Source of the DNA: an uncultured bacterium
Lineage (GTDB): Bacteria > Patescibacteriota > Minisyncoccia > Phycocordibacterales > PALSA-1337
Reading direction: 5' to 3'
DNA: 11,880 bases
NCBI GenBank assembly: GCA_903870235.1
Contig: CAIQCA010000026.1
Location: 1-11,880 of the forward strand
Part shown: positions 2,620 to 11,709 of the stretch, piece by piece
How the letters are laid out: every line of letters starts with the position of its first letter
Numbering within the stretch: position 1 is the stretch's first letter
Translations under genes and position numbers: made by a program
The notes under the pieces: model-generated
Told to the model about the DNA's origin: nothing
Seen by the model: only the letters and a program-made list of their open reading frames with translations
Databases searched by the model: none

Positions 2620-2649
2620 TTGACAATTGGGGTAGTAGTATGCTATAAA
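2620..2649 (+). promoter_or_regulatory. Promoter of the first surface-protein gene
   Basis: TTGACA (2620-2625) and TATAAA (2644-2649) are separated by 18 bases. The spacer shares GGGTA and the TAGT...GC run before the -10 with the promoter of the second paralog at 3576-3605. Initiation is expected near 2656. Confidence 0.85.
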
Positions 2650-2673
2650 CAAACTGTTATTAGATTAACACGA

Positions 2674-2731
2674 GCATATAGCTGTTTAGTGGCTTAACAA
2701 GGCCTTACGGCCAACCACTCTAAAGCAGTGC
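2674..2731 (+). ncRNA. Structured 5' leader, copy 1 (candidate cis-regulatory RNA)
   Basis: The leader can fold as nested helices: GCAT (2674-2677) with GTGC (2728-2731), GC (2681-2682) with GC (2725-2726), TTTAG (2685-2689) with CTAAA (2720-2724), and TGG with CCA (2690-2692/2715-2717). The innermost hairpin is GGCC-TTAC-GGCC (2701-2712). The core 2691-2714, including CTTAACA, matches copy 2 at 21 of 24 bases. The UUUAG/CUAAA helix is replaced there by UCUGG/CCAGA, with two compensatory pair changes. The structure ends nine bases before the ATG, where a Shine-Dalgarno sequence would normally be. It matches no riboswitch class I know. Confidence 0.6.
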
Positions 2732-2740
2732 CGAATATTT

Positions 2741-3511
2741 ATGAAAAAAACACAAAAAATTACAATTAGTATGTTGAGTATAGCAGGCATATGTGCCGTG
2801 GTAGCGGTTGTCTTTTTGACTTCTGCTATTGTCGCGCATGGATGCTCTACTTCTGATCCATGTTCTAATTATGATACATATTCATATGGTAGTGCGTATC
2901 AGTATCCACCTAGTCAAATGATTGTAAGCCCTTTGTCGGCTACTTGTTACTCTCAGCCAATATCTACTTTTGTAGGTACTTCGGTTCAATGGACCGCCTC
3001 TGTAACTGGAGGTGTTTTCCCTTACTCTTACAATATCACCTGGATTGGTGACGAAGGTTTGTCAGGTTATGGATCTTCAATTTCTAAAGTCTATAGTACT
3101 CCTGGCTCAAAAACCGCTAGTATTCAGGTTATTTCCGGTGGTCAGACTACAGCCGTAAACTGTTCAAACTCAATCAACGTTATGTTGAGAACTACAGCCG
3201 ACGGATTCTCATTTGGTAATTATAACTATGGTTCTGCTGGAAACAATAATTATCAAAACAATTCAAATTATAACGGCTATAGTAATTATAACAATAACGG
3301 TTATAGCAACTACAATAATTACAATTCCAACAATAACGGTTATAGCAACTACAATAATTCCAACTATAACGGTTATAACAGCAACAATGGCTACAATAGC
3401 TATAATGGCTATGGTAATAACTACAACCAGTATTCTGGATATAACGGTGGTTACCAAAACAATTACAACGGGGGAGGTAGCTATTTCCCAAGTGTTTACC
3501 GATATCGCTAA
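2741..3511 (+). CDS. Secreted or surface protein: one PKD/Ig-like domain plus Asn/Tyr-rich tail
   Basis: The 256-residue protein has a basic N-terminus and a hydrophobic segment (about 10-31) ending in AHGC (Cys35). That could be a signal peptidase I site (A-H-G) or a degenerate lipobox. One PKD/Ig-like beta domain (about 62-147) is bracketed by Cys69 and Cys141, probably a disulfide. Residues from about 160 to the end are low complexity, mostly Asn, Tyr, Gly and Ser in units such as NGYSNYNN, of the prion-like type. There is no C-terminal membrane helix, so unlike its downstream paralog it is probably released or held only by its N-terminus. The first ~147 residues are strongly similar to those of the paralog at 3698. 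No Shine-Dalgarno is visible; the start follows from the conserved leader geometry. A role in adhesion or surface assembly is inference. Confidence 0.8.
   Translation: MKKTQKITISMLSIAGICAVVAVVFLTSAIVAHGCSTSDPCSNYDTYSYGSAYQYPPSQMIVSPLSATCYSQPISTFVGTSVQWTASVTGGVFPYSYNITWIGDEGLSGYGSSISKVYSTPGSKTASIQVISGGQTTAVNCSNSINVMLRTTADGFSFGNYNYGSAGNNNYQNNSNYNGYSNYNNNGYSNYNNYNSNNNGYSNYNNSNYNGYNSNNGYNSYNGYGNNYNQYSGYNGGYQNNYNGGGSYFPSVYRYR
3290..3359 (+). repeat. Perfect 31-base direct repeat in the Asn/Tyr-rich coding tail
   Basis: Bases 3290-3320 and 3329-3359 are identical over 31 bases with a 39-base (13-codon) offset, encoding the unit NNGYSNYNN twice in frame. Identity at silent positions points to recent duplication or slippage instead of selection on the peptide alone. 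Less perfect units surround it from about 3240 to 3420. Confidence 0.8.
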
Positions 3512-3545
3512 AGGATAGTTGCTGTTTAATCGGATTATCTGATTC

Positions 3546-3565
3546 TGCGTAAGAAACACGCATTT
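3546..3565 (+). terminator. Weak hairpin after the first surface-protein gene
   Basis: TGCGT (3546-3550) and ACGCA (3558-3562) form a five-pair stem with a seven-base loop, followed only by TTT. It is the only hairpin at the end of this gene and would terminate poorly, so some read-through into the second gene is likely. Confidence 0.3.
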
Positions 3566-3594
3566 ACCCTGCCTATTGACAAAATAGGGTAAAT
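3562..3594 (+). promoter_or_regulatory. Inverted repeat enclosing the -35 box of the second surface-protein gene
   Basis: ATTTACCCT (3562-3570) and AGGGTAAAT (3586-3594) are perfect nine-base inverted repeats. The -35 box TTGACA lies between them and the right arm occupies the promoter spacer. No T run follows, so it is not a terminator, and the position suits an operator. The promoter of the first paralog lacks the left arm. Confidence 0.45.
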
Positions 3595-3605
3595 AGTGCT
3601 ATAAT
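3576..3605 (+). promoter_or_regulatory. Promoter of the second surface-protein gene
   Basis: TTGACA (3576-3581) and TATAAT (3600-3605) are both consensus hexamers with an 18-base spacer. The expected start is near 3612, about 17 bases before the structured leader. It is a close relative of the promoter at 2620-2649. Confidence 0.9.
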
Positions 3606-3628
3606 AGTTAGGTAATCAAATTAAATGA

Positions 3629-3687
3629 GCATGAAGCCAATCTGGCGGCTTAACACGGCCTCACAGCCAAACACCAGAAGGCAATGC
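3629..3687 (+). ncRNA. Structured 5' leader, copy 2 (candidate cis-regulatory RNA)
   Basis: The same architecture as copy 1: GCAT (3629-3632) with ATGC (3684-3687), GCC (3636-3638) with GGC (3680-3682), TCTGG (3641-3645) with CCAGA (3674-3678), and an inner GGC-CTCACA-GCC hairpin (3657-3668). The conserved core is 3647-3670. Compared with copy 1, the P2 helix has two compensatory changes (U-A to C-G and A-U to G-C) and the outer helix changes U-G to U-A. The conserved GGC at 3647-3649 could alternatively pair with GCC at 3666-3668, giving a second possible fold. The structure ends ten bases before the ATG. Confidence 0.6.
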
Positions 3688-3697
3688 CACAAAATAT

Positions 3698-5020
3698 ATG
3701 ACTAAATCACAAGTAATCAAACATAGTATATTGAGTATCACGATCATATGCGTCGTGGTGGCCGTTGTCTTCTTGGCTTCGACTATTACAGCTCATGGAT
3801 GTTCATATTATGATAATTCATGCGGCGGATATGCTCCTGCACCGATATACTCCTATGGTAGTTCATACCAGTATCCTCCAAGTCAGCCGATTGTGAGTCC
3901 TATAATCGCTACTTGTTATTCTCAACCGCTTTCTACTTATGTAGGTAATACAGTTCAATGGACCGCACAAGTGACTGGTGGTGTTGCGCCTTATTCTTAC
4001 AATATCACCTGGATTGGTGATGAAGGTTTGTCAGGTTATGGATCTACTATTTCTAAGGTCTATAATTCTATCGGAACAAAGAATGCCAGCATCCAAGTTA
4101 TCTCTGGTGGTCAGACTGTTGCTGTAAATTGTTCAAACTCTATCAATGTTTCAGACCAATCTTACAGTTATTATCCAAATTATTACAACAATAATAATAA
4201 TTATAACTATTCAAATTATTCAAGTTATACCAATCCTGTAGCTGTTAGCTGTGTCGCAAATACAACTAGTACTGGCGTAGGTTCAACTGTCACTTGGTCA
4301 GCAATGGCTTCTGGTGGTAGCGGTTACTACACATATAGTTGGAGCGGTACAGATGGACTTTATGGTGCTAGTCAATACACTACATTCACTTACAATAACC
4401 CTGGTGTGAAAAATGCCACTGTTGTCGTAAGCTCAAATGGTCAAACTTCTACCGGATATTGTTCAAGCTCTGTCAATGTAAGTCAAAATTATAACGGATA
4501 TTACAATTCGTATAATCCTAGTTACATAATTACTCAGAACTCAAACAATGGTCTAGATATAGGTTGTTATTCCGATCCTGCTTCAGTAGCTATCAATCAG
4601 CCAGTTACATGGAATGTTGAAGTTACTGGCGGTGTCGCACCTTACACTTATTCTTGGACTGGTACAAATGGTTTGACAGGTAATCAGAGTTCAGTCATCA
4701 AATACTATTCAACTTCTGGTAGCAAAAATGCTATTGTGACAGTTAAATCAGCAGATGGTAAGACTGGAACTCGTGCATGTAGTAATGCTTTGACAGTTCG
4801 TGGCGCTGCTTCAAATGGCACAGTTACAACTGTTATTACTACAAGTACCAGCACAAATGGTACCAATAACACTCCAAACACAAATCCTAATGGTACTCAG
4901 TTGTCAGCTGCATCAATCTTCTCCTTCGATAACGTTCCTTGGGGTTGGATTGCAATCCTGATTATCCTCGTGTTGTTCGCTACAGTTATGTACCTCTTGT
5001 TCAATAGACAGAAGATATAA
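3698..5020 (+). CDS. Membrane-anchored surface protein with three PKD/Ig-like domains
   Basis: The 440-residue protein has an N-terminal hydrophobic segment (about 10-31) ending in AHGC (Cys35), as in its upstream paralog. Three beta-sandwich repeats of the PKD/Ig-like type follow, each carrying a pattern like VTGGVAPYTYSW and bracketed by two cysteines: Cys73-Cys145, Cys185-Cys255 and Cys290-Cys361, spaced 70-72 residues. Linkers at about 152-180 and 262-285 are rich in Asn, Tyr and Ser. A Thr/Asn stalk (about 371-400) leads to a C-terminal membrane helix (about 413-435) with a short basic tail, NRQKI. The repeat array should therefore face outside and be anchored at its C-terminus. Binding to host or neighbouring cells is a reasonable inference for an epibiotic lineage but is not shown. 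There is no Shine-Dalgarno. Confidence 0.85.
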   Translation: MTKSQVIKHSILSITIICVVVAVVFLASTITAHGCSYYDNSCGGYAPAPIYSYGSSYQYPPSQPIVSPIIATCYSQPLSTYVGNTVQWTAQVTGGVAPYSYNITWIGDEGLSGYGSTISKVYNSIGTKNASIQVISGGQTVAVNCSNSINVSDQSYSYYPNYYNNNNNYNYSNYSSYTNPVAVSCVANTTSTGVGSTVTWSAMASGGSGYYTYSWSGTDGLYGASQYTTFTYNNPGVKNATVVVSSNGQTSTGYCSSSVNVSQNYNGYYNSYNPSYIITQNSNNGLDIGCYSDPASVAINQPVTWNVEVTGGVAPYTYSWTGTNGLTGNQSSVIKYYSTSGSKNAIVTVKSADGKTGTRACSNALTVRGAASNGTVTTVITTSTSTNGTNNTPNTNPNGTQLSAASIFSFDNVPWGWIAILIILVLFATVMYLLFNRQKI

Positions 5021-10293: not shown

Positions 10294-10977
10294 ATGAATA
10301 CAGAACAAGGCCGAGGATGGAAGATTCGTAGTCCTAAAAAGAATGTTGGTGCTGAGGTGCTCGTGGGTGTTTCGATCTCGACGGGAAAAAATGGGCCGTT
10401 TGCTTATAAGATGTTTGGTGAGCGTGACCTTTTTGCTAATGCAAATACGGGCGTGATATTCCTGAAATCGAACAAGGAAACCCTAGGGGCCGTGTCTCGT
10501 GGAGAGGTTCAGTTTGGTGTTGTACCAATCTTGGACCCGTCTATACCAGAAGGGTTGGTTAGTGAAGTTGTACATTTCTGGGTGGAACATGACCGTAAGG
10601 TCGGAGTCGTCGCGGAACAGTTACTGAATGTTGGATGCGGACGATTGGTCCGATTCAACTTGGTCACCGCAGTTGCGTCGGATCCAGCGATCAGAAACAA
10701 GAAGGCCCTGGTCCTGTGTGTCGATCATAAGTCGAAAACAATCGACGGGGCACTTGAGGTTATCCGGTCGTTTCAGTACAAACAGACCTGTCTGAGGCCG
10801 ATCGATACGGGTGCACCTGAAGATCATTGTTTCTATGTCGAGGTTATCCGCTCGGTAAATGATCATGCTTGGTCACCAAACTTCATGAAGGAATTGTCGG
10901 AGGTGACCGTATGGGCTCGTTGTATGGGGACTCTCCGCGAACACAATCGTTTTGTGGATGTACCCCAGTCTGGATAG
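10294..10977 (+). CDS. Reduced prephenate dehydratase-like protein with ACT domain
   Basis: The 227-residue protein resembles PheA-type prephenate dehydratase in two parts. Residues about 21-115 match the first half of the catalytic domain: NGPFAYKMFG corresponds to the family's GPxGTFS start, and EVQFGVVPIL corresponds to ADYGVVPIENS. Residues about 135-215 match the C-terminal ACT domain, with GAL at 152-154 and LRP at 167-169 as in the family's GAL and ESRP motifs, ending in WARCMGTL. The intervening second lobe and the catalytic Thr-Arg-Phe segment are absent (families usually run about 270-280 residues), and the IENS tetrapeptide is replaced by ILDP. Dehydratase activity is therefore doubtful; an amino-acid-sensing or regulatory role is a guess. 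It is monocistronic, with a strong Shine-Dalgarno and terminator. Its NNG/NNC-rich codon use resembles the ligase gene more than dnaE or rnhB. Confidence 0.55.
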   Translation: MNTEQGRGWKIRSPKKNVGAEVLVGVSISTGKNGPFAYKMFGERDLFANANTGVIFLKSNKETLGAVSRGEVQFGVVPILDPSIPEGLVSEVVHFWVEHDRKVGVVAEQLLNVGCGRLVRFNLVTAVASDPAIRNKKALVLCVDHKSKTIDGALEVIRSFQYKQTCLRPIDTGAPEDHCFYVEVIRSVNDHAWSPNFMKELSEVTVWARCMGTLREHNRFVDVPQSG

Positions 10978-11046: not shown

Positions 11047-11052
11047 GTGTTA

Positions 11053-11709
11053 ATGGTAAAACCGCACGCAAAACCACACAAAAAGTTTTGGACAAAAAAA
11101 CCATCGGAGATACTTGTTGGTATCGATGAAGCCGGTCGCGGTCCATTGGCTGGCCCAGTTTCTGTGGGAGTTTTTGCTGTAAGAACTTCCGGCATATTGA
11201 AAAAATTCTGTGGCGTTAAAGACTCGAAACAGCTAAGTGAAAAACAAAGGGAAGAATGGTTGGAGAAAATTAAAAAAATGCGTAAGCCTATTACAGGCGG
11301 ATCTCCAGAAGTTGCCTACGCGGTTTCTTTCTCAAGCGCTGGCACAATTGATAAGCGCGGCATTTCACATGCTGTACGTGCGGCGATAAATCGAGCGCTA
11401 CAAAGACTTGAGCGTGACGGTTTTGTAGATATTCATTCTCAAATTAAACTTGATGGTCTCCTACATGCTCCCACCCGGTTTAAACACCAAAGAACTATTA
11501 TAAATGGTGATGCTACACAACCTATAATTGCTTTAGCCTCTATCTGTGCGAAGGTTCACAGAGATCGTCGTATGAAAAAAGTTGCCAAGCAATATCCACA
11601 ATACGGCTTTGAAATCCATAAAGGCTATGGCACAGCTGCTCATTATAAGGCCATAAAAAAACACGGCATATCGAAAATACACCGTAGAAGCTATTTGAAG
11701 AATCTTTAA
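11053..11709 (+). CDS. rnhB: Ribonuclease HII
   Basis: Cleaves the RNA strand of RNA-DNA hybrids and single ribonucleotides embedded in DNA, in the cytoplasm. The 218-residue protein has the family signature GIDEAGRGPLAGPV (Asp25, Glu26) and DSKQLSEKQR (Asp57). The remaining acidic active-site residues are Asp134 (KLDGLL) and Asp153 (NGDATQ), followed by the conserved SICAKVHRDRRM segment and a basic C-terminal tail. All four acidic active-site residues are present and the length is normal. An in-frame GTG at 11047 would add two residues, but it lies directly after the -10 box, so the ATG at 11053 is chosen. There is no Shine-Dalgarno, consistent with a leaderless mRNA. Confidence 0.95.
   Translation: MVKPHAKPHKKFWTKKPSEILVGIDEAGRGPLAGPVSVGVFAVRTSGILKKFCGVKDSKQLSEKQREEWLEKIKKMRKPITGGSPEVAYAVSFSSAGTIDKRGISHAVRAAINRALQRLERDGFVDIHSQIKLDGLLHAPTRFKHQRTIINGDATQPIIALASICAKVHRDRRMKKVAKQYPQYGFEIHKGYGTAAHYKAIKKHGISKIHRRSYLKNL

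Follow-up and report, generated by a model that had tools for sequence, protein, structure and literature searches.

The 14-nt centre shared by two structured leaders in front of a pair of surface-protein genes is, in our moderately confident reading, a double-stranded DNA site for a putative dimeric regulator of the cell envelope, the surface-gene leaders being additionally able to form hairpins. The window analysed here, i.e. the whole stretch of 11,880 nt, is a contig of an 889-kb genome that is 75 % complete, and its two leaders are one example of a near-palindrome that many of the tiny uncultured bacteria of this order carry close to promoters of genes for the cell wall and surface. To our knowledge, gene regulation in Patescibacteria has been little explored. 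No paper on transcription factor binding and regulons in the candidate phyla radiation was found in a limited literature collection, and none of the matches listed there for Parcubacteria promoter motifs or peptidoglycan hydrolases names such an element in its title; the accessible parts of the literature on Patescibacteria and riboswitches found in this collection treat riboswitches as tools.

Genes A and B of the window are tandem duplicates, each with a leader of about 85 nt counted from the inferred RNA start. The features concerned are as follows:

2620..2649, forward strand: promoter of copy 1, read from the sequence, with TTGACA at 2620-2625, a 17-nt spacer and CTATAA at 2643-2648 (TATAAA at 2644-2649)
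about 2656, forward strand: RNA start of copy 1, inferred from the promoter
2672..2732, forward strand: predicted leader hairpin of copy 1 (RNA), with outer GCAU/GUGC, GCU/AGC, AGUGG/CCACU and apical GGCC/GGCC
2691..2714, forward strand: 24-nt core of copy 1, GGCTTAACAAGGCCTTACGGCCAA
2691..2704, forward strand: near-palindromic, operator-like centre of copy 1, GGCTTAACAAGGCC
2741..3511, forward strand: gene A, for a Tyr/Asn-rich, probably secreted protein (256 aa)
3576..3605, forward strand: promoter of copy 2, read from the sequence, with TTGACA at 3576-3581, a 17-nt spacer and CTATAA at 3599-3604 (TATAAT at 3600-3605)
about 3612, forward strand: RNA start of copy 2, inferred from the promoter
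3627..3688, forward strand: predicted leader hairpin of copy 2 (RNA), with GCAU/AUGC, GCC/GGC and UCUGG/CCAGA
3647..3670, forward strand: 24-nt core of copy 2, GGCTTAACACGGCCTCACAGCCAA
3647..3660, forward strand: near-palindromic, operator-like centre of copy 2, GGCTTAACACGGCC
3698..5020, forward strand: gene B, a surface protein with a PKD-like domain (Pfam PF18911, 7.9e-07)

Gene A has no Pfam match and, by inspection, no C-terminal membrane segment; gene B, by inspection, has one, and its homologs are present in 48 of 53 family genomes. The predicted hairpins stop 8-9 nt short of the start codons, and inspection agrees with the earlier note that both ATGs lack a Shine-Dalgarno sequence. Elsewhere in the window, the genes at 718-2523 (without Pfam match) and 10294-10977 (with only a sub-threshold match to PF00800, E 0.003) show Shine-Dalgarno-like sequences by eye, and the gene at 11047-11709, RNase HII-like by eye, appears leaderless.

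The nearly identical 24-base core described earlier proved to be genuine, with 21 of 24 identities between the copies, the best 24-mer in 200 shuffles (leaders permuted as two-base blocks) reaching 18, and both cores begin 71 nt past TTGACA. With up to three mismatches allowed, this core occurs within its own genome only at the two window sites and was not found in 146 relatives; its exact pattern had no match among viral contigs. Given the tandem duplication of the two genes, little is therefore proven by the two sequences alone. Single-sequence folding is modestly better than that of shuffles, with z of -1.85 for copy 1 and -1.57 for copy 2 (-1.94 and -0.39 with longer flanks). The UUUAG/CUAAA helix which the earlier note had drawn in copy 1 does not hold up, i.e. 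its pair probabilities are 0.00-0.01, forcing it costs 5.1 kcal/mol and AGUGG/CCACU is predicted to form instead, so that the drawn P2 helix is disfavoured even in copy 1; UCUGG/CCAGA in copy 2 has a pair probability of 0.91-0.95. The supposed two double substitutions therefore set a favoured helix against an unfavoured one. As to the switch suggested by two mutually exclusive partners of a conserved GGC, the complementarity is real, and the predicted pairing differs between the copies: the middle GCC pairs downstream with a mean probability of 1.00 in copy 1 and 0.38 in copy 2, and with the first GGC with 0.00 and 0.26, respectively. A pseudoknot between the leader 5' end and the loop, as well as short ORFs inside the leaders, were also weighed but discarded on inspection.

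Homologs with covariation, as anticipated, do exist, and what the orthologous leaders of the genus (records named Ca. Taylorbacteria and others) retain is only the 14-nt centre GGCY-N6-RGCC, not the 24-nt core. This centre or a near form of it was assigned, by hand and alignment, in 25 of 51 printed leaders, the other 26 being short or having no assignable centre. It starts 68-71 nt after TTGAC in 23 of the 25 (at 84 and 86 nt in the remaining two), whereas its distance to the start codon, with starts chosen by hand, varies from 4 to 68 nt; its position therefore follows the promoter rather than the start codon. For each leader, the pairing of the 5' arm with the 3' arm from the same leader was then compared with its pairing to 3' arms taken from the others, kinship being ignored. 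Over the 25 leaders, the sum was -222.5 kcal/mol, a value reached by 0 of 20000 permutations, compared with -154.5 (sd 11.8) for permuted arms, and shuffled arms of the same leaders, with dinucleotides kept, gave -171.8 (sd 9.9) kcal/mol. The 20 surface leaders whose arms are of sufficient length gave a swap z of -5.5, falling to -2.5 at positions 9-30. G-U pairs in the arms were in slight excess (42 vs 36.2 expected), A-C pairs were not (30 vs 31.0). Since the arms pair better within than between leaders, a hairpin in the leader RNA of this surface-gene family is supported, but the test does not single out the helices of the earlier note.

The leader is all but missing in several homologs from other genera and in some from within this one, and therefore the structured leader looks like an addition. 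A hairpin that does nothing but stabilise the 5' end of the mRNA, its apex being conserved because it folds well, would suit both such an addition and the long stems of variable sequence; as it leaves the conserved central bases, the use of both orientations and the sites upstream of promoters (see below) unexplained, we consider it very improbable. Further variation among these leaders was seen by the way. In L023, L026, L031, L045, L048, L050 and L054 the ATG lies a few bases past the -10 region, and these are probably leaderless. A mini-hairpin ACGA-GCAA-UCGU just before the ATG replaces the long hairpin in L006 and L007, the second tandem copy of two close relatives; L008, L009 and L016, with a different promoter type, have an extra hairpin AUACG...CGUAU near the inferred 5' end; and L136 and L139, which precede a surface-type protein of a different family, carry GGCTT twice, as GGCTTAAAAACGGCTT or AGCTTAAAAACGGCTT, in a comparable position.

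A promoter-plus-core model (R1) run over the genus gave 21 matches with E < 1e-5, all of which precede this surface-gene family; because 20 of the 21 are training sequences, they are no independent proof, and the sole non-training match (in G027) is also a homolog's leader. Weaker matches in the genus were mixed. Over 297 order genomes, 28 had matches with E up to 0.01, several of them terminator-like by eye. This resemblance to intrinsic terminators, together with T runs seen by inspection after some order sites, would fit an attenuator or terminator-like leader hairpin set by a factor; nevertheless, neither window hairpin is followed by the U run of an intrinsic terminator (by inspection), some sites of the element lie upstream of the promoter, and we regard attenuation as quite improbable.

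The centre is dispersed well beyond the surface genes. In its own genome, GGCYYNAYNNRGCC has 14 matches and the reversed pattern none, the looser GGCYNNNNNNRGCC (GGCYN6RGCC) being less enriched (36 vs 22 reversed), and in 34 genus genomes GGCTYARYANRGCC has 90 matches (51 + 39 by strand) vs 10 reversed, as summed by hand. We read 81 genus sites, i.e. the stretches around most matches, and grouped them by neighbouring genes; the class labels P, T, Q and S and many centres were assigned by hand, and the conservation of the centre at genus and order sites is partly built in, because the search patterns fix it. In class P, 19 sites separate an rpmA-like gene, so named by eye, from a divergent gene with a weak SLT resemblance (E 0.0042, short of the cut-off). 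The sites of class T, 15 in number, are located in the leaders of one gene cluster, of which the one member tested is a LysM-M23 gene, and 11 of them adjoin a divergent helicase-like gene (named by eye); the class counted 18 sites in the first arm test and 15 in the later one, including L213, whose gene falls outside the M23 cluster. Other genus sites are found near an rpsF-like gene, tRNA genes (some 3' of them), a Band_7 gene and elsewhere, and a few fall inside genes. Around the centres of L211, L214, L234, L236, L257, L258 and L260, upstream of the promoters of unrelated genes, a longer stretch is conserved, with three copies in G010, which could be a repeated promoter module.

The class P centre starts 34 nt (18 sites) or 33 nt (one site) before TTGAC in 19 of 19 cases, with 8 sites in sense and 11 in reverse orientation. 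In class T, the centre starts 60-63 nt after TTGAC at 14 of 15 loci, the other having no recognised promoter; L213 shares this spacing. Here 11 sites are sense and three reverse, i.e. the M23 sites favour one orientation. As for the loops of the 25 surface leaders, nine match YARYAN fully, seven its full reverse complement, and nine neither fully or were not scored. The element thus has dyad symmetry and is used independently of orientation, and within the genus its spacing to the promoters of several genes is fixed. Several copies per genome in either orientation might also be expected of a dispersed repeat, or of a mobile hairpin, with no part in regulation, but the fixed promoter spacing and the recurring gene neighbours speak against it, and we find this reading hardly credible.

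The same observations bear on a cis-regulatory RNA whose GGCU-N6-AGCC apex would be bound by a protein, RNA or ligand and would govern how surface and peptidase mRNAs are translated or decay. Such an RNA is favoured by the location of the element in the leaders of surface and M23 genes, by alternative GCC partners in several leaders, by the small G-U excess and by the covariation of the arms, which recurs more weakly in the genus M23-type leaders (swap z -2.3 for 15 loci, kinship ignored, among them L213, which is not a shown M23 gene). However, a strand-specific core inside the transcript was not found: the centre occurs in both orientations, and a class P site, lying upstream of the promoter in 19 of 19 cases, cannot be in the RNA of that gene. 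In duplex DNA it is natural that YARYAN and its reverse complement replace each other at one position, which is hard to explain for an RNA loop; C-A mismatches in the fourth pair of certain reverse centres (L013 and L029, by inspection) and the order M23 leaders, which have no extended stem, point the same way. Therefore, an operator fits better than an RNA ligand core, and we judge the purely RNA-based reading rather unlikely.

Arm pairing at the remaining genus sites is uneven. The 29 unclassified sites covary, with a swap z of -3.8 (kinship ignored), and classes S (7 sites) and Q (4 sites) show no covariation against swaps (z +0.6 and -0.9, respectively). For class P the comparison with two-base-block shuffles gave z -3.9 and the swap z was reversed (+2.5), but the swap test is unusable there because both orientations are mixed. 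A plain operator explains neither the covariation in the surface leaders and the 29 unclassified sites nor the G-U excess. It is conceivable, if unlikely, that the element is dual, i.e. a double-stranded operator across the order that in one genus also serves as the apex of covarying hairpins in leader RNA, both forms being recognised; if true, peptidoglycan hydrolases and surface proteins would be linked in one regulon.

Across the order, ATGGCTYARYANAGCCAT (ATGGCTY-N4-RAGCCAT, up to one mismatch) is present in 142 of 397 genomes and 81 of 179 genera, its reversed form occurring six times in five of the 397. At 17 of the 20 order loci listed, the site lies 57-71 nt after a TTGAC promoter, and ORFs taken at 16 of these 17 all encode LysM and M23 domains (16/16). 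By our own scoring, nine of the 17 centres are fully sense, two fully reverse and six neither. Of the other three loci, L289 and L292 have the site 56 nt before the promoter of a gene without Pfam match whose first residues resemble those of the class P gene, and L302 fits neither the M23-type nor the upstream-site group. The 17 M23-type loci have no extended stem (z +0.5 vs swaps and +0.3 vs two-base-block shuffles, kinship ignored); since their arms pair at chance, the widely shared feature is the short palindrome, and the long stem looks like a local addition. Among 379 phylum genomes, a stricter pattern matched 12, i.e. the own genome, one of the 16 further members of the order and 10 of the 362 genomes beyond it, nine of these 10 with one mismatch, and the reversed pattern matched two; a contrast between this order and other orders of the phylum is thus suggestive only. 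Order M23 leaders such as L290, L298 and L304-L307 also share a second recurrent motif, approximately TAGGCTTATTTTA, 30-50 nt past the palindrome and shortly before the start.

Taken as an operator, the 18-bp near-palindrome would be bound near promoters by a candidate dimeric regulator, whose targets would comprise LysM-M23 peptidases, a possible lytic transglycosylase and PKD-type surface proteins (in the genus). An activator would suit the upstream sites, whose centre is at about -63 if the RNA start is placed 36 nt past the initial T of TTGAC, and a repressor or roadblock would suit those at about +27 to +49; in the window, where the site covers about +36 to +49 relative to the inferred RNA start, a protein bound there could block transcription at an early stage or modulate it. 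Complementary flanks in the surface-gene family would extend the site into a long leader hairpin that may tune mRNA stability or ribosome access. A CRP-type regulator, suggested by the half-site spacing, is not supported, HTH_Crp_2 (PF13545) being over the cut-off in only one of 34 genus genomes.

The earlier note knew of no riboswitch class with this core, and no Rfam family matched: the window compared with Rfam at E up to 5 yielded two tRNAs and a sub-threshold plastid match overlapping a tRNA, and 33 related loci gave only tRNAs at gathering thresholds. Of the proposal of a structured leader with a control role, the homologous leaders with covarying arms remain, and the riboswitch is not supported, because the near-palindrome occurs in both orientations, upstream of promoters and before order M23 genes without the extended stem. 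Judged from sequence, the element resembles a DNA site bound by protein more than it does a riboswitch, and its RNA can also fold into a hairpin.

Among known systems, hairpins such as that of ompA stabilise mRNAs from the 5' UTR. The window hairpins likewise are stem-loops near the 5' end of a surface-protein mRNA, but about 15 unpaired nt precede them, counted from the inferred start, and their apex is common to other genes. The c-di-AMP riboswitch is a large RNA, unlike the short palindrome found here, and neither the window nor the 33 related loci had an Rfam match but tRNA. According to the accessible part of one report, this riboswitch (ydaO-yuaA) can control a cell-wall peptidase gene (PMC9960051). 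Both are leader elements ahead of a cell-wall hydrolase gene. Operators of dimeric transcription factors include, e.g., the class I sites of the CRP family near -61.5. The present element differs from these in sequence and in that the surface and M23 sites lie downstream of the inferred start, but resembles them in being a near-palindrome whose orientation is irrelevant and which keeps a fixed upstream spacing, the class P centre being at about -63.
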